54,784 bases of DNA. It comes from Clostridia bacterium. Its GTDB lineage: Bacteria > Bacillota > Clostridia > Christensenellales > Aristaeellaceae. The notes beneath the pieces were generated by a model. The model was given only the letters and a program-made list of their open reading frames with translations, was not told where the DNA came from and ran no database searches. This document shows positions 2,186-12,137 of this stretch, piece by piece; within the stretch, counting starts at the first letter, position 1, and each line of letters begins with the position of its first letter. The stretch covers positions 1 through 54,784 of the forward strand of contig JAFXRG010000045.1 of the NCBI GenBank assembly GCA_017526525.1, written 5' to 3'. Position numbers and translations under genes: made by a program.

Positions 2186-4597
2186 ATGAAGAACCTGTTC
2201 AGAAGGACTTTATCCTTTCTGCTGGCATTGCTGCTGGCGGGATCCATGATGCCCCTGACGACGCTGGCTGAAGAGTACGGGGATACGGGAACCCCCGCAG
2301 AAGAGGAAGAAACAGAGGTTTTCTATCCCGACGAGCTGTGGGTTGGAAATCCGACGATCACCAAGGGGGATTTCTTCACCGAGATGTTTGGCAACGACAC
2401 GGCCGATATCGACGTGCGGGCCCTGATTCACGGATACAACCTGGTGAACTGGGATCAGAACCAGGGGGTTTACGTAATCGATGAATCCGTGGTGGAAAAC
2501 CTGCTGGTGACATCGGACGACGCCGGAAACAAGACCTATTATTTCAGTCTTTTTGAAGACCTGTTCTACAGCGACGGAACGCCCATCACAGCGTGGGACT
2601 ATGCATTTTCCCTGCTGCTGATGATGAGCCGCGAGATCGATGAAATCGGAGGAAAGATTTACCGGTCCGAGCACATCCTGGGATCGCGGGAATACCTGCA
2701 GGGGGCGCTGCCCTACCTGCAGGGCGTTGCCGTGCTGGACGAACACCAGCTGGCCATTACGCTGGACGGCGAATTCCTGCCGTACTTCTTTGAGCCGGGC
2801 CTGCTGCTTTGCGTTCCGTATCCCATCAGGGAAATTGCTCCCGGATGCAAGGTATACGCCGGCGGCGAAGTGGATCTGGGGAACGGATACGGATACGGCG
2901 TATGGATCGGAAACGAAAATCCCGCGGTGAAGGAGCCGGTGTTTACGGCGGACCTGCTGCGGAAGACAATCCTGGATCCGGAAACGGGATACAACAGCCA
3001 TCCGAAGGTTGTCAGCGGACCGTATAAGCTGGTCAGCTGGGACGGAACGGTAAGCCACTTTGAGATCAACGAATATTTCAAAGGCGTATGGCTGGGCGAT
3101 GAACTGCCTGAAGGTTTCCGGTTTGAGGCACGGCCGTTCCCCGGCGTCGGCAGCGGTACCGTAGAGGCGGACAGCCACACGGGCCCGAACATCTACCGGG
3201 CGGAAAAGATGACCCGGGACGGAAAGACGAAAACCATGTACCTGCTGAAGCCGACCATCCGCAGGATTGCCTATACGGTGGCGAATAACGACACCCTGCC
3301 GGAGGACCTCCGGGAAGGCAGGCTTCACCTGGCGAACAAGGTGACCTACGCCGAAACCATTGACGCCTGCATGGGCCGGGGACAGGCCGCGGTACCGGCA
3401 GACGACGGTATGGAAATGGACCCGGATGCTGAACCGGCCGGGGACGCAGAAGACGAAGAGCTGACCGGGGAAGAAGCGGAAACGGAAGACGGTGCGCAGA
3501 TTGCCTACCAGAATTATCCGCGGATCGGACTGGCTTTCCTGACCTTTACCTATGAAAACCCGACGGTTCATGAAATGGAAGTCCGGCAGGCCATGGCCTG
3601 GTGTATGGACCGGGACCGGATGACCCAGGATTACTGCGGCTACTACGGCCTGGTGGTCAACGGCTACTACGGGATTGAACAGTGGGAGTACAGGCTCATT
3701 AACGGTACGCTGGAGTACCCCGTGGTTTACAAGGACGACGCGGAAGAACTGACGCCGGCGGAAATTGAGAAAATGAAGCAGCATCCGAATATCTACGCGG
3801 AGACGGATGAGGAATACGAAGCGATTCTTGAAAAATGGCAGGAGCTAAACCTGGACAACCTGGTCAACTACAACGTGGGCTCCGCGGAAACGGAAGACGG
3901 GGAGAAGCCCGGAATTGTGAAGGCCAACCAGCTGCTGGACAAGGCCGGATGGACGCTGAACCGGAACGGGGAAACGTATCAGCCGGGCGTGGACGACGTA
4001 CGCTGCAAGAAGATTGACGACAAACTGACGGCGCTGGATCTGACGCTGATGTATCCGCGGGGGAATCACATCGTGGATACGATTCAGGAAAATTTCCTGG
4101 ACAATCTGGCAAAAGCCGGGATCCGGGTGACGCTGGTGCCGGAAGACATGGAGGAGCTGCTGAAGAGCTATTACCGGGAAAAGGAACGGACCACGGACAT
4201 GATTTATCTGGGAACGGATTTCCATGTTATCGTGGACCCGAGCATCACCTATTCTGCGGATCCGACGCCGGATCACCTGATCTGGAACAATACCTACAGC
4301 GACGACGAAGAGCTGTGGGAGCGGGCAGTGGACATGCGGAAGACCGAACCGGAAAGCTTCTATGAGTACGTTGTGAAGTGGATCCGCTTCCAGGAACGGT
4401 ACAACGAAGTGCTGCCGGCGATTCCGCTGTACAGCAACGTCTATTTTGACTTTTTCACCAGCCAGCTGCAGAACTACGTTATTACTGACCATGTGACCTG
4501 GAGCCAGGCCATTCTGGAAAGCTACTTCGGCGAGGCTCCGGAGGAACCGGAAGCAGAGGAAGGCGAGGACGGAGAAGCAGCGGAGTTTGATTTCTGA
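2186..4597 (+). CDS. Exported solute-binding protein, peptide/OppA type (SBP_bac_5)
   Basis: 803 residues. It has a clear signal peptide (KNLFRR, hydrophobic core, TTLAEEYG) with a signal-peptidase-I-type end and no lipobox cysteine. The mature part carries the SBP_bac_5 signature region LFYSDGTPITAWDYAFSL at about residues 125-143 and the closing peptide-binding lobe, as in oligopeptide or dipeptide binding proteins of ABC importers. Two features are odd. An acidic low-complexity insert at about residues 403-437 (runs of D and E) sits in the middle, and the last 25 residues are again mostly E, D, A and P. No permease or ATPase genes flank it, so it is an orphan receptor or acts as a secreted chaperone-like binder. 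The start is set by AAAGGAG at 2168-2174. A hairpin terminator follows. Family call is firm; ligand unknown. Confidence 0.85.
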   Translation: MKNLFRRTLSFLLALLLAGSMMPLTTLAEEYGDTGTPAEEEETEVFYPDELWVGNPTITKGDFFTEMFGNDTADIDVRALIHGYNLVNWDQNQGVYVIDESVVENLLVTSDDAGNKTYYFSLFEDLFYSDGTPITAWDYAFSLLLMMSREIDEIGGKIYRSEHILGSREYLQGALPYLQGVAVLDEHQLAITLDGEFLPYFFEPGLLLCVPYPIREIAPGCKVYAGGEVDLGNGYGYGVWIGNENPAVKEPVFTADLLRKTILDPETGYNSHPKVVSGPYKLVSWDGTVSHFEINEYFKGVWLGDELPEGFRFEARPFPGVGSGTVEADSHTGPNIYRAEKMTRDGKTKTMYLLKPTIRRIAYTVANNDTLPEDLREGRLHLANKVTYAETIDACMGRGQAAVPADDGMEMDPDAEPAGDAEDEELTGEEAETEDGAQIAYQNYPRIGLAFLTFTYENPTVHEMEVRQAMAWCMDRDRMTQDYCGYYGLVVNGYYGIEQWEYRLINGTLEYPVVYKDDAEELTPAEIEKMKQHPNIYAETDEEYEAILEKWQELNLDNLVNYNVGSAETEDGEKPGIVKANQLLDKAGWTLNRNGETYQPGVDDVRCKKIDDKLTALDLTLMYPRGNHIVDTIQENFLDNLAKAGIRVTLVPEDMEELLKSYYREKERTTDMIYLGTDFHVIVDPSITYSADPTPDHLIWNNTYSDDEELWERAVDMRKTEPESFYEYVVKWIRFQERYNEVLPAIPLYSNVYFDFFTSQLQNYVITDHVTWSQAILESYFGEAPEEPEAEEGEDGEAAEFDF

Positions 4598-5030: not shown

Positions 5031-5870
5031 ATGAAAAAGTTTTTTGCCATTCTGCTTGCTGCCGCGCTGCTGCTGACCGCCGCGGTTTCCTTCGCCGATG
5101 AAGAGCTGACCCATATCAAGTATTCCAAATCCCAGGGACCCTACACCGAACTGTTTGAAGCGGCCATCATTCCGATCCTGGAAGCCCAGGGCTACACCTT
5201 CGAAGTGGTGGAAACCTCTGAACTGCTGGTGGCGGACCAGCAGCTGCAGGCCGGCGAGGTGCAGGTAAACGTTGAACAGCACACCGCCTATGCCAACAAC
5301 TTCAACGCCAACAACAACGGCGACCTGACTCCCATCAGCGTGATCCCCACCGTTCCCGCGGGCATCTATTCCGTCAATCACGCTTCCCTGGATGAGGTGG
5401 GCAAGGGCTTCACGGTGGCCATTCCCAACGACGCCAGCAACACGGCCCGCTGCCTGGCGATCCTGCAGAAGATCGGCTGGATCAAGCTGGATGAGAACGT
5501 GGACATTTCCGCGGTGACCGTGGACGACGTGGTGGAAAATCCCTACGAACTGGAGCTGATTGAGCAGAAGAGCCTGACCATTCCGGCGGCCATCCAGGAT
5601 TATGACTACGCTGCCATTACCGGTTCGGTGGTTTACAACGCGGGCATTGACGGATCCACGGCGCTGGCCAACGAGGACGTGCTGCCCCACCTGATCCTGC
5701 AGGTGGTTGTGAAGGCGGAGAACGTGGACGCCCCCTGGGCCAAAGCGATTGTGGCCGCGTATCATTCCAAGGAGTTCAAGGAATACCTGGACAAGGAAAA
5801 CGCACCGGACGGCGCCTGGAGAGGCCTGTGGTGGATTCCGGAAGAACTGTTCGCGGACCTGGCGGAATAA
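5031..5870 (+). CDS. metQ: MetQ/NlpA-type methionine (sulfur amino acid) binding protein
   Basis: 279 residues with a signal peptide (KKFFAILLAAALLLTAAVSFA) and canonical NlpA lobe order. An N-terminal half (about 25-123) contains the EQHTAY segment equivalent to the family's FQHxPY. The hinge follows (FTVAIPNDASN at about 126), then a C-terminal half with ILQKIGWIKL. NlpA proteins bind L- or D-methionine or related amino acids and deliver them to MetN/MetI. The signal sequence contains no cysteine, so it cannot be lipid-anchored as MetQ usually is. GAAAGGGG lies upstream of ATG. It is first in the eight-gene operon, directly behind the leader attenuator. The substrate could be methionine, cystine or an acylated sulfur amino acid; the family is certain, the ligand is not. 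Confidence 0.88.
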   Translation: MKKFFAILLAAALLLTAAVSFADEELTHIKYSKSQGPYTELFEAAIIPILEAQGYTFEVVETSELLVADQQLQAGEVQVNVEQHTAYANNFNANNNGDLTPISVIPTVPAGIYSVNHASLDEVGKGFTVAIPNDASNTARCLAILQKIGWIKLDENVDISAVTVDDVVENPYELELIEQKSLTIPAAIQDYDYAAITGSVVYNAGIDGSTALANEDVLPHLILQVVVKAENVDAPWAKAIVAAYHSKEFKEYLDKENAPDGAWRGLWWIPEELFADLAE

Positions 5871-5913
5871 GACTGAAAAATGATGATGTAAAGAGAACAG
5901 GAGGATCATGAAT

Positions 5914-6819
5914 ATGAAAGCAACAAAAAAATTCTTTGCGCTGGCTCTGGCGCTGGTTCTGGCCCTGACCGCCGCGGCCGCGGCTGCTGAAACCCTGCAG
6001 ATCGGTATTCCGGACGACGGCACCAACCTTTCCCGCGGCATCAAGCTGCTGGAAACCGCGGGCCTGATTACGGTGAAACCGGAAGCGGGCTACACCCCGG
6101 AAATCGCGGATATCACCGGATACCTGTACGACATTGAGGTGAAGCCCGTGCAGGCCAATACCCTGCCCTCCACCCTGCAGGATTTCGGCGCCTCCACCAT
6201 CAACGGAACCTACGCCATTCCCTACGGCCTGATTCCCTCCCGGGACGGCCTGATCATTGAGAAGCAGAGCGAATCCGGCGACAATCCCTACGTCAACATC
6301 ATCGTGGCCCGGACGGCGGACAAGGAAAACGAAACCTTCCGGACTGTTGTGGAAGCCTATCAGACCCAGCTGGTGGCGGAATTCCTGCTGGTGAACTACG
6401 AGGAAGCTTTCTTCCCGGCCTTCCCCTATGACAGCGCCATCACCCTGACGGCGGAGGATGCCCAGGCCATCCGTGAATACCAGTCTTCCCGGGACGGAAA
6501 GACTGTTGTGCGGGTCGGCGTATGCGGCGCCAACAACGATCAGTGGAAAGCCGTTCAGAAGGTGCTGGACGAGGAAAATGCGGGCATCTACATCGAGCTG
6601 GTGGAATTTGACGCCTACAACCTTCCGAATGAAGCGCTGAACGCGGGCGAGATTGAGCTGAATGCCTTCCAGCACAAGGCTTACCTGAACAAAGACGCGG
6701 AACAGAACGGATACGACCTGACCGTGATCGGCGATACGCTGATTGCCCCGCTGACCCTGTACTCCGAGAAGTTCGATTCCCTGGACGCCCTGAAGGAAGC
6801 CGCCGGAGCCATTCAGTAA
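5914..6819 (+). CDS. Circularly permuted MetQ/NlpA-type binding protein
   Basis: 301 residues from ATG 5914, chosen because AGGAGG at 5899-5904 is 9 bases away; the in-frame ATG at 5908 would be only 3 bases away. After the signal peptide the protein opens with LQIGIPDDGTN at residue 28, equivalent to the mid-protein hinge strand of ordinary MetQ (FTVAIPNDASN at residue 126 of its neighbour). It runs through the usual C-terminal half (LLETAGLI, DNPYVNIIVAR, FFPAF). After a short linker at about 181-197 comes what is normally the N-terminal half: VVRVGVCGANND at 198, LNAFQHKAYL and LYSEKFDSLDALKEAAG. It stops exactly where the hinge would begin. Both halves are complete, so the fold can close. 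No lipobox cysteine is present. The partner is probably one of the two MetN/MetI sets downstream. Confidence 0.8.
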   Translation: MKATKKFFALALALVLALTAAAAAAETLQIGIPDDGTNLSRGIKLLETAGLITVKPEAGYTPEIADITGYLYDIEVKPVQANTLPSTLQDFGASTINGTYAIPYGLIPSRDGLIIEKQSESGDNPYVNIIVARTADKENETFRTVVEAYQTQLVAEFLLVNYEEAFFPAFPYDSAITLTAEDAQAIREYQSSRDGKTVVRVGVCGANNDQWKAVQKVLDEENAGIYIELVEFDAYNLPNEALNAGEIELNAFQHKAYLNKDAEQNGYDLTVIGDTLIAPLTLYSEKFDSLDALKEAAGAIQ

Positions 6820-6857: not shown

Positions 6858-7973
6858 ATGATTGAAGTCAAGCACCTGAACAAAACCTTCCACCTGAAAA
6901 GCGGGGATGTGACCGCGCTGAGGGATGTATCCTTCCGGGTGGAAAAGGGTTCCATCTACGGAATCATCGGGTATTCGGGAGCGGGCAAATCAACCCTTGT
7001 GCGCTGCCTCAATCTTTTGGAATATGCCGATTCCGGGGAGCTCCGGATCGGAGACGACCGGGAAATCGTGCTGCAGCAGGGGCGGCCCGCCATTGGCGGC
7101 CGGAAGATGACCGCCCGGCAGGAGAACGCCCTGCGCCGGGGAATCGGGATGATTTTTCAGCACTTTAACCTGTTGGACCGGCTGACGGTGTTCGACAATA
7201 TCGCCTATCCCCTGAAGCATACCGGGAAGAACCGGATCCGGATCCGGCAGCGGGTGATGGAGCTGCTGGAGCTTGTGGGGCTGACGGACAAAGCGGATGT
7301 GTTTCCGTCCCAGCTTTCCGGCGGCCAGAAGCAGCGGGTTGCCATTGCCCGGGCCCTGGCCGGCAATCCCCCGATTCTGCTGTCGGATGAAGCCACCAGT
7401 GCCCTGGATCCGGAAGCGACGGAATCGATTCTGACCCTGCTGAAGGAACTGAACCGGAAGCTGGGAATTACGGTGGTGCTGATTACCCATGAAATGGCGG
7501 TTGTGAAACGGATTGCGGACCGGGTTGCCGTGATGGAGGAAGGACGGATTGTGGAAGAGGGCAGCGTGTACGACCTGTTCTCCAATCCGGGAACGGAGAT
7601 CAGCAGACGCTTTGTGGCTTCCTCCTCCCTGCTGGGGAAGATTGACCGGATGATCCGGGACAACGCGGACCTGGCGAACGTCCGGGAAGGGGAGCTGCTG
7701 GTGCGGCTGACTTTTGAAAAAGAATGCGTCGGCCAGCATGTGCTGACCAGCGCGGCGAAAGAGACCGGGGTGGACCTGAACCTGCTGCTGGCGGACGCGG
7801 AGTACCTCCAGGGAAGTCCCCTGGGCGGTATTGTGGGAATCCTCAGCGGCACACCGGAGAGCATCGAAAAGGGAATTGACTATCTCAGGAATCATCATGT
7901 AAGAACGGAGGTGCTTCAGGATGGAGGAGTTCATCAGAACCGCCGCACCGAATCTTTACACGTACCGGGATAA
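6858..7973 (+). CDS. metN: Methionine ABC transporter ATP-binding protein MetN (first copy)
   Basis: 371 residues. Walker A GYSGAGKST at about 38-46, LSGGQ at about 153, Walker B ILLSDEA at about 173 and the H-loop ITHE near 209 are all intact. A C-terminal NIL domain (about 265-345) is present, the regulatory ligand-sensing domain typical of MetN. A short insert follows the Walker A region (RPAIGGRKMTARQ). It powers uptake through the MetI permease encoded next. Its last 53 bases overlap the metI start at 7921, so the terminal residues (GGVHQNRRTESLHVPG) are probably an overlap-derived tail. ATG 6858 follows a weak AGG-containing site. Family call is firm. Confidence 0.9.
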   Translation: MIEVKHLNKTFHLKSGDVTALRDVSFRVEKGSIYGIIGYSGAGKSTLVRCLNLLEYADSGELRIGDDREIVLQQGRPAIGGRKMTARQENALRRGIGMIFQHFNLLDRLTVFDNIAYPLKHTGKNRIRIRQRVMELLELVGLTDKADVFPSQLSGGQKQRVAIARALAGNPPILLSDEATSALDPEATESILTLLKELNRKLGITVVLITHEMAVVKRIADRVAVMEEGRIVEEGSVYDLFSNPGTEISRRFVASSSLLGKIDRMIRDNADLANVREGELLVRLTFEKECVGQHVLTSAAKETGVDLNLLLADAEYLQGSPLGGIVGILSGTPESIEKGIDYLRNHHVRTEVLQDGGVHQNRRTESLHVPG

Positions 7974-8646
7974 GTTCTGGAAAAGCTTTGGCGCAACCTT
8001 TGAGATGTTCTGGAAGGCCGGGGGAATTGTTTTCCTGGTGGGAATGTTTTTCGGCGTGCTGCTGGTGGTGACCCGAAAGGGCGGGATCCGCCAGAACCTG
8101 GTGGTTTACCAGCTGGTGAACACAGTGGTAAACCTGTTCCGGAGCATTCCCTTCATCATCCTGCTGATTTTCCTGATTCCGCTGACCCGGGCGGTGGTGG
8201 GAACGGCCATCAACGTCAAAGGCGCAATCCTGCCGCTGGTGTTCGGCGCGGTACCCTTTTACACCCGGCAGGTGGAGGTGGCGCTGAGCGGTGTGGACGC
8301 AGGAAAGATTGAGGCGGCCCGGAGTATGGGCAGCGGAACCGCGGGCCTGATTTTCCGGGTTTACCTGCGGGAGGCGGTACCGGACCTGATCCGCGTGACC
8401 ACGGTGACGGCCATCAGCCTGATCGGCCTGACCACCATGGCCGGGGCGGTGGGCGCCGGGGGAATCGGATCCTTTGCCATTAACTACGGACAGAACCAGA
8501 ACCATCCGGACATTGTGAACGCCTGCGTCATCGTCCTGCTGCTGCTGACCTTTCTGCTGCAGGGCAGCGGGAACCTGCTGGCCCGGAGAACCCACAACCG
8601 GAAGCTGTTTGTCCGGATACATCGGAAACAGGAGAAATCGATATGA
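7921..8646 (+). CDS. metI: Methionine ABC transporter permease MetI (first copy)
   Basis: 241 residues with about five hydrophobic helices and the binding-protein-dependent permease EAA loop (EAARSMGSGTAGLIFRVYLREAVP region, about residues 124-147) that docks with MetN. The RSIPFIILL and TTMAGAVGAGGIG segments are typical MetI features. Translation starts inside metN (overlap 53 bases) and ends in an ATGA overlap with the M20 gene, so the three are translationally coupled. The N-terminal extension MEEFIRTAAPNLYTYRDKF is amphipathic and longer than in most MetI. Confidence 0.9.
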   Translation: MEEFIRTAAPNLYTYRDKFWKSFGATFEMFWKAGGIVFLVGMFFGVLLVVTRKGGIRQNLVVYQLVNTVVNLFRSIPFIILLIFLIPLTRAVVGTAINVKGAILPLVFGAVPFYTRQVEVALSGVDAGKIEAARSMGSGTAGLIFRVYLREAVPDLIRVTTVTAISLIGLTTMAGAVGAGGIGSFAINYGQNQNHPDIVNACVIVLLLLTFLLQGSGNLLARRTHNRKLFVRIHRKQEKSI

Positions 8647-9836
8647 GTATCAGGGAAAAAATCCTGCAGTACGCGGAAAGCCGGTATCCGGTATACCGGG
8701 AAATCGCGCTGCAGATTCACGCAAAACCGGAAACAAGCAATCACGAGGAATTTGCCTGCGCCTTGCTCAGTGAACAGGCGCGGAAGGAAGGCTTTGAGGT
8801 CACCGTGGACGTGGCGGGCCACCCCACCGGATTTACCGGCGTTTACCGCTCCGGCAAGCCCGGACCGGTGCTGGCATTCCTGGCGGAATACGACGCGCTG
8901 CCCGGATTGGGGCATGGCTGCGGCCATAACCTGTTCGGCGCTACGTCCCTGCTGGCCGCGGCTTCCCTGAAGCAGGTCATTGAGGAGATCGGCGGGGAAA
9001 TCCGGGTTTACGGCACCCCGGGAGAGGAAGGCGGAGAGAACGGAAGCGCCAAGGGGAGCTTCGTCCGGGAAGGCTTCTTCCGGGACGTGGACGCGGCGCT
9101 GTGCGTTCATCCCGGGTCGGACCACCATGAACTGACCCACGCGGAAATCGCCTGCGCGCCGATCCGGATTGAATTCCGGGGCAAAGCGGCCCACGTGTCT
9201 TCCGCGCCCCAGGACGGCATCAACGCCCTGGATGCGCTGGTGCTGGTGTTCAACGCCATCGGCCTGCTGCGGCAGCAGCTGCCGGGGGATGTGCGGATTC
9301 ACGGAATTGTGACGAAGGGCGGAGACGCGCCGAACATCATTCCGGATCTGACGGAGGGCCGGTTTTATGTCCGGGCTTCCACGGTGGGCCGGATGATGAA
9401 GGTTTACCACCGCCTGGAGGAGATTGTGAAGGGCGCGGCGCTGCAGACCGGATGCGAAGGACTGCTGGAGCCCGCCCAGCGGAACCTGATTGACAACGTG
9501 GTTCCGACGCCGTCCTTCGACGAGGTGTACCGGAAGAACCTGCTGTCCCTGGGAGAAACCGTTGACGACCGTAATTTCCCGCTGGGATCCTCCGACGTGG
9601 GGAACGTTTCCCAGGTGATTCCGGTAATCCAGCCGATGATCCGGATCAGCGACAAACCCGTGGCCGGCCACAGCATTGAAAAGGTGGAAGCGAGCCGCAG
9701 CGAGACCGGGCTCCGGTCCATCGCGCTGGGAGCCAAGGCCCTGGCGCTGACCGCCGCGGACCTGATCACCGATCCGGAACTGCTGCGCAAAATCAGGGAA
9801 GACCACAAGCTGGCGGTAGCCGCACAGGACGAATAA
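8643..9836 (+). CDS. M20-family amidohydrolase/aminoacylase
   Basis: 397 residues, cytoplasmic. The dinuclear-zinc M20 signature is intact: HGCGHN near residue 97, GTPGEEGGE with the catalytic glutamate near 129, the CVHPGSDHH ligand, AHVSSAPQDG of the dimerisation lid and VAGHSIE near the C-terminus. M20D enzymes of this type remove acyl groups from N-acyl amino acids or open amide-linked conjugates. Lying between two MetNI sets and sharing an ATGA overlap with metI, it most plausibly processes an imported N-acyl or S-modified cysteine or methionine. Homologues in sulfur-compound operons of Bacillus do comparable work. The substrate assignment is inference. Confidence 0.85.
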   Translation: MSIREKILQYAESRYPVYREIALQIHAKPETSNHEEFACALLSEQARKEGFEVTVDVAGHPTGFTGVYRSGKPGPVLAFLAEYDALPGLGHGCGHNLFGATSLLAAASLKQVIEEIGGEIRVYGTPGEEGGENGSAKGSFVREGFFRDVDAALCVHPGSDHHELTHAEIACAPIRIEFRGKAAHVSSAPQDGINALDALVLVFNAIGLLRQQLPGDVRIHGIVTKGGDAPNIIPDLTEGRFYVRASTVGRMMKVYHRLEEIVKGAALQTGCEGLLEPAQRNLIDNVVPTPSFDEVYRKNLLSLGETVDDRNFPLGSSDVGNVSQVIPVIQPMIRISDKPVAGHSIEKVEASRSETGLRSIALGAKALALTAADLITDPELLRKIREDHKLAVAAQDE

Positions 9837-9858: not shown

Positions 9859-10914
9859 ATGATCCGATTGGAACACGTATCCCGGACCTTCAGGGAAAAG
9901 AACCTGGAAGTGCATGCCCTGCAGGATGTGAGCCTGCAGGTGCAGGAAGGGGAAATTTACGGAATTGTCGGGTTTTCCGGCGCCGGGAAATCCACCCTGA
10001 TCCGGCTGGTGAACCGGCTGGAAACCCCGGATACCGGAACGGTCCGGGTGGACGGGGAGGAGCTTTCGGGGCTGAAAGGGAAGGCCCTGTCCATCCTGCG
10101 GAGAAAGATCGGCATGGTCTTTCAGCAGTTTAACCTGCTGGAAGGGAAGACGGTTTACCACAACATTGCCATTCCCCTCCGGATGGAAGGCCGGTCCAAG
10201 GCGGAGATTGAACGCCGGGTTTCCGAAGTGCTTGATTTTGTGGAGCTGGGGGAAAAGAAAAACGCGTATGTGAGCCAGCTTTCCGGCGGCCAGAAGCAGC
10301 GGGTGGGCATTGCCCGGGCCCTGGCCACGAAACCGAAAATCCTGCTGTGCGACGAGGCCACCAGCGCCCTGGATCCGCAGACGACGGAATCCATCCTGAA
10401 GCTGCTGAAGCGGGTCAACCAGGAAATGGGTATCACGATTATGCTGATTACCCACCAGATGCAGGTGATTCAGATGATCTGCGACCGGGTGGCCGTGATG
10501 GAAAACGGGAAGATTGTGGAGGAAGGAAACGTACTGGACGTGTTCGGGCAGCCGCAGGCGGAAGTGACGAGGCGGTTTGTGCGGACCGTGATCAACGACC
10601 AGGTGCCGGAAACCTTCTATGACACGATCCGCTCCGAAAACCGGCATTACCGGCTGGAGCAGCTGAAGTTTATCGGGGATACGGTCAACGAACCGGTGAT
10701 TGCCAGCCTGTGCCGGCGGGAAGGGCTGGACGTGAATATCGTCGGGGCCAATATTTCACCGATGCAGGGAAGCATGATGAGCGTTTTCATCCTGCAGCTG
10801 ATCGGGGATTCGGAACAGATTAACGCGGCGGAGGCATATATCGACAAGTCCGGCGCCATACGGAAGCGGCTGATCATTGACTGGGAAAACCGGACGGTGA
10901 CAGAAACCGCCTGA
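9859..10914 (+). CDS. metN: Methionine ABC transporter ATP-binding protein MetN (second copy)
   Basis: 351 residues. Walker A GFSGAGKST (about 38-46), LSGGQ (about 142), Walker B ILLCDEA (about 162) and H-loop ITHQ are intact, followed by a NIL domain (about 265-340). It is clearly paralogous to the first MetN but lacks that copy's insert, so the two are not a recent duplication. It likely pairs with the MetI starting 29 bases downstream. With two binding proteins, two ATPases and two permeases the operon encodes two parallel importers, or one with interchangeable parts. Confidence 0.9.
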   Translation: MIRLEHVSRTFREKNLEVHALQDVSLQVQEGEIYGIVGFSGAGKSTLIRLVNRLETPDTGTVRVDGEELSGLKGKALSILRRKIGMVFQQFNLLEGKTVYHNIAIPLRMEGRSKAEIERRVSEVLDFVELGEKKNAYVSQLSGGQKQRVGIARALATKPKILLCDEATSALDPQTTESILKLLKRVNQEMGITIMLITHQMQVIQMICDRVAVMENGKIVEEGNVLDVFGQPQAEVTRRFVRTVINDQVPETFYDTIRSENRHYRLEQLKFIGDTVNEPVIASLCRREGLDVNIVGANISPMQGSMMSVFILQLIGDSEQINAAEAYIDKSGAIRKRLIIDWENRTVTETA

Positions 10915-10943: not shown

Positions 10944-11633
10944 ATGAACTGGACGGATACAAAAATTTTCGGGGTGAAATGGAGCCGGCTGCTGCTGAAT
11001 ATCCAGCAGACCCTGTATATGGTCGGATGGGCGCTGCTGATCGGAACGGTGATCGGGTTCCTGCTGGCGCTGGCGCTGGTGTTGACCCGGAAGGGCGGGA
11101 TCCTGCGGGGGAAAGCGGCCGCCGCGGTGCATACGGTGCTGAACCTGTATGTGAACGTTGTGCGGTCGGTGCCGTTTGTGATTTTGCTGGTGACCATCAT
11201 GCCCTTCACCCGGATGCTGATGGGAACCACCATCGGGTCCACCGCGGCACTGGTGCCGCTGGTGCTGTATATCAGTCCGTATCTGGCCCGGCTCATCGAG
11301 AACAGCCTGCTGGAGTGCTCTCCCGGGATCATTGAGGCGGCGCAGGCCATGGGGGCCAACGTGTTCCAGGTGATCCGGTATTTTATGATTCCCGAAACGC
11401 TCGGATCCATGGTTCTGGCGCTGACGACCGGGACCATCGGACTGCTTGGGGCGTCGGCCATGGCGGGCTATGTCGGCGGCGGCGGTGTGGGCGATCTGGC
11501 GCTGACCTACGGCTATGAAAAGATGAACACGGCGCTGATGATTCTGACCGTTGTGATTCTGATTGTGATTGTACAGTTGATTCAGCTTCTGGGGAGCTTT
11601 ATTTCCGGCAGGCTCCGGGCTCACCAGTCCTGA
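10944..11633 (+). CDS. metI: Methionine ABC transporter permease MetI (second copy)
   Basis: 229 residues with five or six hydrophobic segments and the EAA loop around EAAQAMGANVFQVIRYFMIPE. VRSVPFVILL and GASAMAGYVGGGGVGD are standard MetI motifs. An AAAGGA site precedes ATG 10944. It is more distant from the first MetI than expected for recent copies. It works in the cytoplasmic membrane with the second MetN. Confidence 0.9.
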   Translation: MNWTDTKIFGVKWSRLLLNIQQTLYMVGWALLIGTVIGFLLALALVLTRKGGILRGKAAAAVHTVLNLYVNVVRSVPFVILLVTIMPFTRMLMGTTIGSTAALVPLVLYISPYLARLIENSLLECSPGIIEAAQAMGANVFQVIRYFMIPETLGSMVLALTTGTIGLLGASAMAGYVGGGGVGDLALTYGYEKMNTALMILTVVILIVIVQLIQLLGSFISGRLRAHQS

Positions 11634-11690: not shown

Positions 11691-12137
11691 ATGAAATTTT
11701 CCACCCGGGTTGAATACGGTGTGCTGGCACTGACGGATATCGCACTGCATACGGAGAACGGAGACAGTGTCTCCGCGCCGGAAATTGCGGACCGGCAGAA
11801 AATTTCCCAGAAGTACCTGGAGCAGATCCTGACGCATCTGAAGCAGGCGGGGCTGATCCGTTCGCAGAAGGGACTGCGGGGCGGGTATACCCTGGCCAGA
11901 AAGGCGGAGGAAATCCGTCTTTCGGATGTGCTGAACGCATTGGATACCAGCATTCTGGAGGAAATGCCTCCCGGGGAAAGCGGGGACGGATCAGCCCTGC
12001 GGGATGCCGTGAATACCTGCCTGTGGAAAAAGCTGAACGGGTTAATCACGGAGTTTACCGAAAAAAAGAGCCTGGCCGAATTCGCCCGGGAATGCAGGGA
12101 GAAGACGCCGGACAGCTGGGATCTGTACATTATCTGA
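11691..12137 (+). CDS. Rrf2-family transcriptional regulator, CymR-like
   Basis: 148 residues with the Rrf2 winged helix (KFSTRVEYGVLALTDIA; SQKYLEQILTHLKQAGL; KGLRGGYTLAR). Only two cysteines occur in the C-terminal part, not the three spaced cysteines that hold an Fe-S cluster in IscR or NsrR. That places it nearer to CymR, the cysteine-metabolism repressor of Firmicutes that senses sulfur status through partner proteins. AGGAGG precedes ATG by a normal distance. As last gene of the uptake operon it probably feeds back on sulfur amino acid genes. The regulatory target is inferred from position only. Confidence 0.82.
   Translation: MKFSTRVEYGVLALTDIALHTENGDSVSAPEIADRQKISQKYLEQILTHLKQAGLIRSQKGLRGGYTLARKAEEIRLSDVLNALDTSILEEMPPGESGDGSALRDAVNTCLWKKLNGLITEFTEKKSLAEFARECREKTPDSWDLYII

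Follow-up and report, generated by a model that had tools for sequence, protein, structure and literature searches.

The permuted receptor gene and its surroundings

The DNA analysed here (the window) is a stretch of 54,784 bp that comprises contig JAFXRG010000045.1 of a Clostridia genome of the family Aristaeellaceae (assembly GCA_017526525.1), whose source bacterium probably came from an animal gut. Positions 5914 to 6819 of this window encode a substrate-binding protein of the NlpA/MetQ family, here called CP1, in which the two halves of the family domain stand in exchanged order. The gene, for which an in-frame ATG at 5908 offers an alternative start, belongs to a cluster with two sets of genes for an ATP-binding cassette (ABC) importer of the MetNI type. 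The coordinates of CP1, its parts and the neighbouring genes are given in Table 1.

Table 1. Features of the CP1 gene and its cluster in window coordinates (aa, amino acids; ORF, open reading frame).
Feature	Position	Strand	Basis
CP1, circularly permuted NlpA/MetQ receptor	5914..6819	+	ORF, 301 aa plus stop; PF03180, rotation scan
CP1 signal peptide, residues 1-25, without lipobox cysteine	5914..5988	+	boundary set here; putative cleavage site
CP1 normal C-terminal part, residues 26-170 (PF03180 99-236), with the equivalents of E. coli R144, N202 and N229	5989..6423	+	
CP1 linker, residues 171-197, old C-terminal tail joined to old mature N-terminus	6424..6504	+	boundaries set here
CP1 normal N-terminal part, residues 198-298 (PF03180 1-98), with the SLDALKEAAG helix last and the equivalents of E. 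coli Y69, H88 and Y91	6505..6807	+	
Ordinary-order NlpA-like protein, divergent, without equivalents of E. coli Y69, N202 and N229	5031..5870	+	PF03180, tree, alignment
metN1, ABC ATPase with NIL domain	6858..7973	+	profile matches, locus comparison
metI1, permease	7921..8646	+	profile matches, locus comparison
M20-family peptidase/amidohydrolase, which accompanies the cassette in many relatives	8643..9836	+	
metN2, second ABC ATPase with NIL domain	9859..10914	+	
metI2, second permease	10944..11633	+	
Rrf2-family regulator	11691..12137	+	profile match

A single rotation restores the ordinary order

Compared with the Pfam profile PF03180, CP1 reached 196 bits in total (cut-off 27) in two stretches that cover the whole profile in swapped order. 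The best stretch, residues 29-170 (nucleotides 5998-6423), corresponds to profile positions 99-236, and nucleotides 6508-6804 correspond to positions 1-98. PF03180 was the sole Pfam match at E values up to 0.01, and the MetQ models of NCBIfam also matched CP1 in two stretches. A phmmer search against the PDB likewise matched solved MetQ structures in two pieces, aligning residues 198-293 with positions 7-102 of 3k2d and residues 20-154 with positions 98-228. The colinear profile order of the NlpA/MetQ family is absent from CP1, which by its sequence is part of a permuted branch of the family and no ordinary member.

In a rotation scan, the score of CP1 against the ordinary-order receptor (Q) of Treponema bryantii B25 rose from 541 in the native form to 953 when CP1 was cut at residue 199, and 190/269 aligned residues (70.6%) of the rotated protein were identical to the Treponema bryantii receptor. 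The corresponding gains were from 525 to 887 against an Erysipelotrichaceae receptor and from 220 to 411 against E. coli MetQ. Since comparisons of ordinary with ordinary proteins hardly gained at all (879 to 882; 452 to 454), chance resemblance can be excluded for CP1. Judged from these alignments, a single rotation restores full-length colinear homology, and CP1 is a strict circular permutation.

An initial annotation, made from the window's letters, had described two swapped but complete halves at this position. The profile stretches, the PDB matches and the rotation scan bear this out, and they also rule out that CP1 consists of two unrelated domains. Its exact hinge boundary has to be corrected: the cut lies in the loop that connects the SLDALKEAAG helix with the IGIPDD strand, at about residues 127-132 of E. 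coli MetQ. By eye, the linker is made up of the old C-terminal tail and the residues directly before the first core strand, and inspection of the alignment in the same way revealed no remnant of a second signal peptide in it. As such receptors show up as two partial hits in searches with profiles that expect one order, the permutation also has consequences for annotation.

The structure prediction that the initial annotation had called for gave only weak AlphaFold2 models, too poor for a comparison of topology, with a mean predicted local distance difference test score of 66 for the permuted protein and 61 for the other model. The best Foldseek rows for the weak permuted model were OpuAC chains with a template modelling score of only 0.27, and its second part, for which the structure search gave no MetQ match, was uninformative.

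Permuted receptors in related bacteria

A permuted match spanning the junction was detected in 33/36 genomes of the same genus, four of them assembled in one or two contigs, which rules out an assembly or frameshift artefact. The three genomes without such a match (G013, G032, G034) are about 54-79% complete. Among the family's other genera, 4/17 listed genomes showed a junction-spanning match, most of the rest giving ordinary-order pieces. Permuted matches were present in 13/296 other genomes of the order, all 13 confirmed by a scan with profiles of the two halves, and a partial match in one extra genome of the order (G230) proved to be permuted when read directly. At E < 1e-50, at least 18/390 other genomes of the class (all 18 loci confirmed by the half-profile scan) and at least 2/397 others in a phylum sample (one already in the class set) had a permuted match; these counts are lower bounds, as the threshold misses divergent forms such as locus L147. 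A search for the same half order in relatives, which the initial annotation had set as a check, thus found it conserved in genomes of the genus, the order and the class. Matches in a tblastn search of plasmids (20/445 records listed) were joined from two pieces, so that the half order was not readable, and they were not used.

Scanning the loci with both half profiles, which covered ORFs of 180 aa or more, divided 160 NlpA ORF entries into 91 permuted, 69 ordinary and no mixed ones; the entries include copies of one gene from loci fetched for their likeness to the permuted form, and the proportions are therefore no frequencies. When 11 chosen genomes of the same genus were searched with PF03180, one permuted gene proved to be the only family member in seven of them (G001, G002, G018, G022, G035, G213, G288; 96-99% complete), including four assembled in one or two contigs (G002, G022, G035, G213). 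The remaining four (G000, G010, G011, G017) carry an ordinary-order gene besides the permuted one. In two metagenome-assembled genomes (MAGs), the permuted gene is broken: a metN fragment runs directly into it in L054 and a frame change interrupts it in L055, for both of which assembly errors are possible.

The window's own genome contains a second permuted gene on contig 25, which is 32% identical to CP1 and belongs to another group, CP2, scattered through the class. The CP1 group was found in the window's genus, two further family members (L077, L078), family f31 (L079, L080), genome G596 (L116) and three MAGs labelled Lachnospiraceae (L051-L053).

A probable receptor of a MetNI-type importer

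Next to the CP1 gene lie ordinary metN and metI genes, as the initial annotation had noted. The window's genus shows the arrangement Q-metN1-metI1 with a permuted Q. The arrangement metN1-metI1-Q occurs with a permuted Q in L051, L053, L079 and L080, and with an ordinary Q in Treponema and other Spirochaetota (L056-L062, L067) and in Erysipelotrichaceae (L065). MetI in all these cassettes outside the genus is 62-66% identical to MetI1 of the window, which indicates that orthologous transporters are paired with receptors of both orders. Ordinary and rotated receptors that are about 70% identical and occupy the same gene place represent a natural matched pair, which allows one to ask whether chain order, lobe continuity or the position of the tether affects opening, docking and ATPase stimulation.

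Calculated against four relatives, the ratio of nonsynonymous to synonymous substitution rates (dN/dS) of the CP1 gene was 0.31-0.62 in the linker, compared with 0.07-0.12 in the C part and 0.06-0.11 in the N part, values that show strong purifying selection on both halves. Overall, we consider it very probable that CP1, a circularly permuted NlpA/MetQ, functions as the substrate-binding protein of an ABC importer of the MetNI type, and that the permutation took place twice in the same loop. The chain runs from the signal peptide through the old C-terminal part and the linker, which would close the old termini, to the old N-terminal part, and the two parts would fold into an ordinary two-lobed Venus-flytrap receptor. 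This receptor may dock on MetN1I1 in the manner of an ordinary MetQ and bind methionine or a close relative. The new N-terminus of the secreted or lipid-anchored protein would lead into the IPDDGTN part and not into the other one.

Positions 69, 88, 91, 144 and 202 of E. coli MetQ, which we take to be pocket residues, are all kept in CP1, and in the permuted rows the only deviations are a single Phe at 91 and a single gap, the latter in a cut row. Passages of a study of E. coli MetQ report that N229 controls methionine binding (PMC12357092); Asn occupies this position in CP1 and in 59/59 non-redundant permuted rows. From these residues, we infer that the substrate is methionine or a close relative.

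The cluster also encodes an M20 hydrolase and an Rrf2 regulator, which would be compatible with a related sulphur compound. CP1 could be permuted and functional with a ligand other than methionine, for example a different sulphur compound or something that the M20 enzyme produces. The presence of two MetNI sets would fit such a ligand, as would the result of the riboswitch scan: no methionine riboswitch was found in the window, in 20 CP2 loci or in 16 CP1 and two ordinary loci, many of which have short flanks, and the last two sets returned only 5S rRNA, tRNA and a glycine riboswitch. However, the pocket positions discussed above are kept and both MetN proteins carry the NIL domain, so that we regard a different ligand as rather unlikely, though it is the strongest of the alternatives.

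Directly before the cluster, positions 2186-4597 encode an extracellular solute-binding protein of family 5 (PF00496; 803 aa) that contains an acidic insertion. A long ORF at 23-2146 contains several near-identical repeats of about 120 residues and resembles a surface protein.

Two permuted groups cut at the same loop

In E. coli MetQ numbering, the new C-terminus lies at a median position of 131 (128-135) in CP1 and 127 (118-128) in CP2. The new N-terminus lies at 132 and 130, respectively, with a range of 129-133 in both groups (17/19 CP1 rows and 40/40 CP2 rows). In a tree of 110 rows with unsettled bootstrap, the two groups fall in different parts of the family, and CP2 is nearest to ordinary clostridial MetQ. 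CP1 is nearest to the ordinary receptors of Treponema and Erysipelotrichaceae, which share its cassette. Compared half by half, the nearest ordinary relatives found for CP1 were those of Treponema and an Erysipelotrichaceae MAG (65-83% identity).

Based on these relationships, the most likely history comprises two permutation events at the same loop, one in the CP1 lineage, starting from a receptor like those of Treponema and Erysipelotrichaceae, and another in the clostridial CP2 lineage. The alternative is one ancient permutation behind both groups, from which the ordinary receptors of Treponema, Erysipelotrichaceae and others would be later reversals. A single clade of all permuted rows was rejected by the approximately unbiased (AU) test (p-AU 5.7e-5) and by a second test (2.4e-6), as well as for the N part (p-AU 0.0017) and the C part (0.018) alone and with L147 added (1.3e-8). 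One origin followed by reversal in Treponema and Erysipelotrichaceae, with both added to the clade, was rejected less firmly (p-AU 0.029). In a focused mixture-model tree, CP1 formed a single clade (67/94); Treponema lay outside it, and the Erysipelotrichaceae receptor L065 came next.

Several observations weigh against two separate events. The cut falls in the same loop in both groups, and at this site the Treponema loop exceeds that of the Erysipelotrichaceae protein by several residues. In the trees of 110 and 70 rows, Treponema is nested inside CP1, so that a reversal to the ordinary order may have taken place there. Y189 and G195 near the junction are common to all 17 rows of two permuted alignments; this would fit common descent and is left unexplained by two origins. 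In addition, a grouping of CP1 with the divergent L147 was not rejected (p-AU 0.14). Considering both sides, we find a single origin improbable and favour two events; two apparently independent permutations at one loop would make the evolution of circular permutation testable.

L147 itself (G230:C118, minus strand) encodes a permuted NlpA lipoprotein that has diverged strongly and whose place in the tree is unsure; a metI-like gene lies next to it. As its grouping with CP2 (p-AU 0.67) is not rejected any more than that with CP1, a third origin is unneeded.

The neighbouring ordinary gene and possible routes to the permutation

The initial annotation had described the neighbouring gene at 5031-5870 as a metQ of ordinary half order, which the PF03180 match confirms, and had derived CP1 from a duplicated metQ followed by loss of the outer halves. 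As a parent, this neighbour is excluded by its distance from CP1 (22-37% identity, over parts only), its place in the tree, where its group of three rows has a branch length of 1.54, and the missing N229 equivalent. Its product carries L, T and L at E. coli positions 69, 202 and 229, for which reason it is probably no methionine receptor and may be expected to bind something else.

Duplication with subsequent loss of the outer halves is a possible route, but the fused N-C-N-C intermediate was not seen among the 160 NlpA entries, which came from a scan of ORFs of 180 aa or more. Two candidates for such an intermediate, L129 and L130 (listed frames of 564 and 586 aa), turned out to be two ordinary genes with one stop codon between them. 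L082 also holds a tandem pair of ordinary metQ genes in one reading frame. The existence of such in-frame pairs makes duplication, fusion and trimming plausible, and the pairs in L129, L130 and L082 are possible precursors of a permutation. Passages of PMC3320104 name duplication, or fission and fusion, as routes to circular permutation; both are candidate routes for NlpA/MetQ, where tandem ordinary pairs exist.

That the CP1 gene is a decaying, non-working relic of a tandem duplication beside an ordinary metQ, as the two adjacent NlpA genes and the in-frame pairs in L082, L129 and L130 might suggest, is highly improbable given the distant neighbour without an N229 equivalent, the dN/dS of 0.06-0.12 in the CP1 halves, and the occurrence of the permuted form in many genera and as the only family member in 7/11 chosen genomes.

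Tethers and N-termini

The distance from the lipid cysteine to the core had a median of 6 residues (range 4-56) in 22 permuted lipoproteins and of 9 (range 6-44) in 36 ordinary ones, a comparison uncorrected for kinship. A first lipobox count contained false positives (L002, probably L015), and a stricter rule was used for these measurements. The permuted CP1 lipoprotein L116 (G596, minus strand) has a tether of about 56 residues that is acidic and rich in Ser and Ala, compared with 4-8 in the other permuted lipoproteins. The N-termini of the permuted receptors L032, L074 and L077 resemble uncleaved membrane anchors, unlike signal peptides or lipoboxes. Lipidated MetQ is reported in passages of PMC8416018 to be needed for interaction, although according to passages of PMC12357092, E. 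coli MetQ can sustain transport in vitro without lipidation as well. In a combined reading that we put forward only tentatively as a whole, some of these bacteria would use the rotated receptor as their normal form, on a very short tether.

Comparison with known binding proteins

CP1 shares with MetQ of E. coli and N. meningitidis (PF03180) two homologous and complete halves, the residue at position N229 and the adjacent metN and metI genes. It differs from them in the order of the halves, in its termini, which lie in the loop at about E. coli 127-132, and in its signal peptide, or the lipid tether of other permuted receptors, which leads into the other part. The two domains of B. subtilis OpuAC are reportedly exchanged relative to E. 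coli ProX. OpuAC belongs to another family (glycine betaine), and permutation or swapping is unmentioned in passages of the OpuA paper (PMC2861598).

As described in passages of PMC4990184, Treponema pallidum Tp0684 (MglB-2; type Ic, cluster Bc) is a naturally permuted sugar-binding type I receptor. It resembles CP1 as a natural permutation of the binding protein of an ABC importer that occurs in treponemes and Gram-positive gut bacteria, and differs in its type I sugar fold, the poor sequence conservation where it is permuted, its large insertion and a fourth crossing of the hinge (PMC4990184). Natural permutation is thus known for binding proteins; for NlpA/MetQ it is apparently undescribed, as no description was found in the literature searched, which covered few subscription journals. 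No homology to MglB (type I sugar-binding) was detected in CP1, PF03180 being its only Pfam match. In contrast to MglB-2, CP1 belongs to the NlpA/MetQ family, has nothing inserted beyond the linker, and has ordinary-order homologues with about 70% identity.
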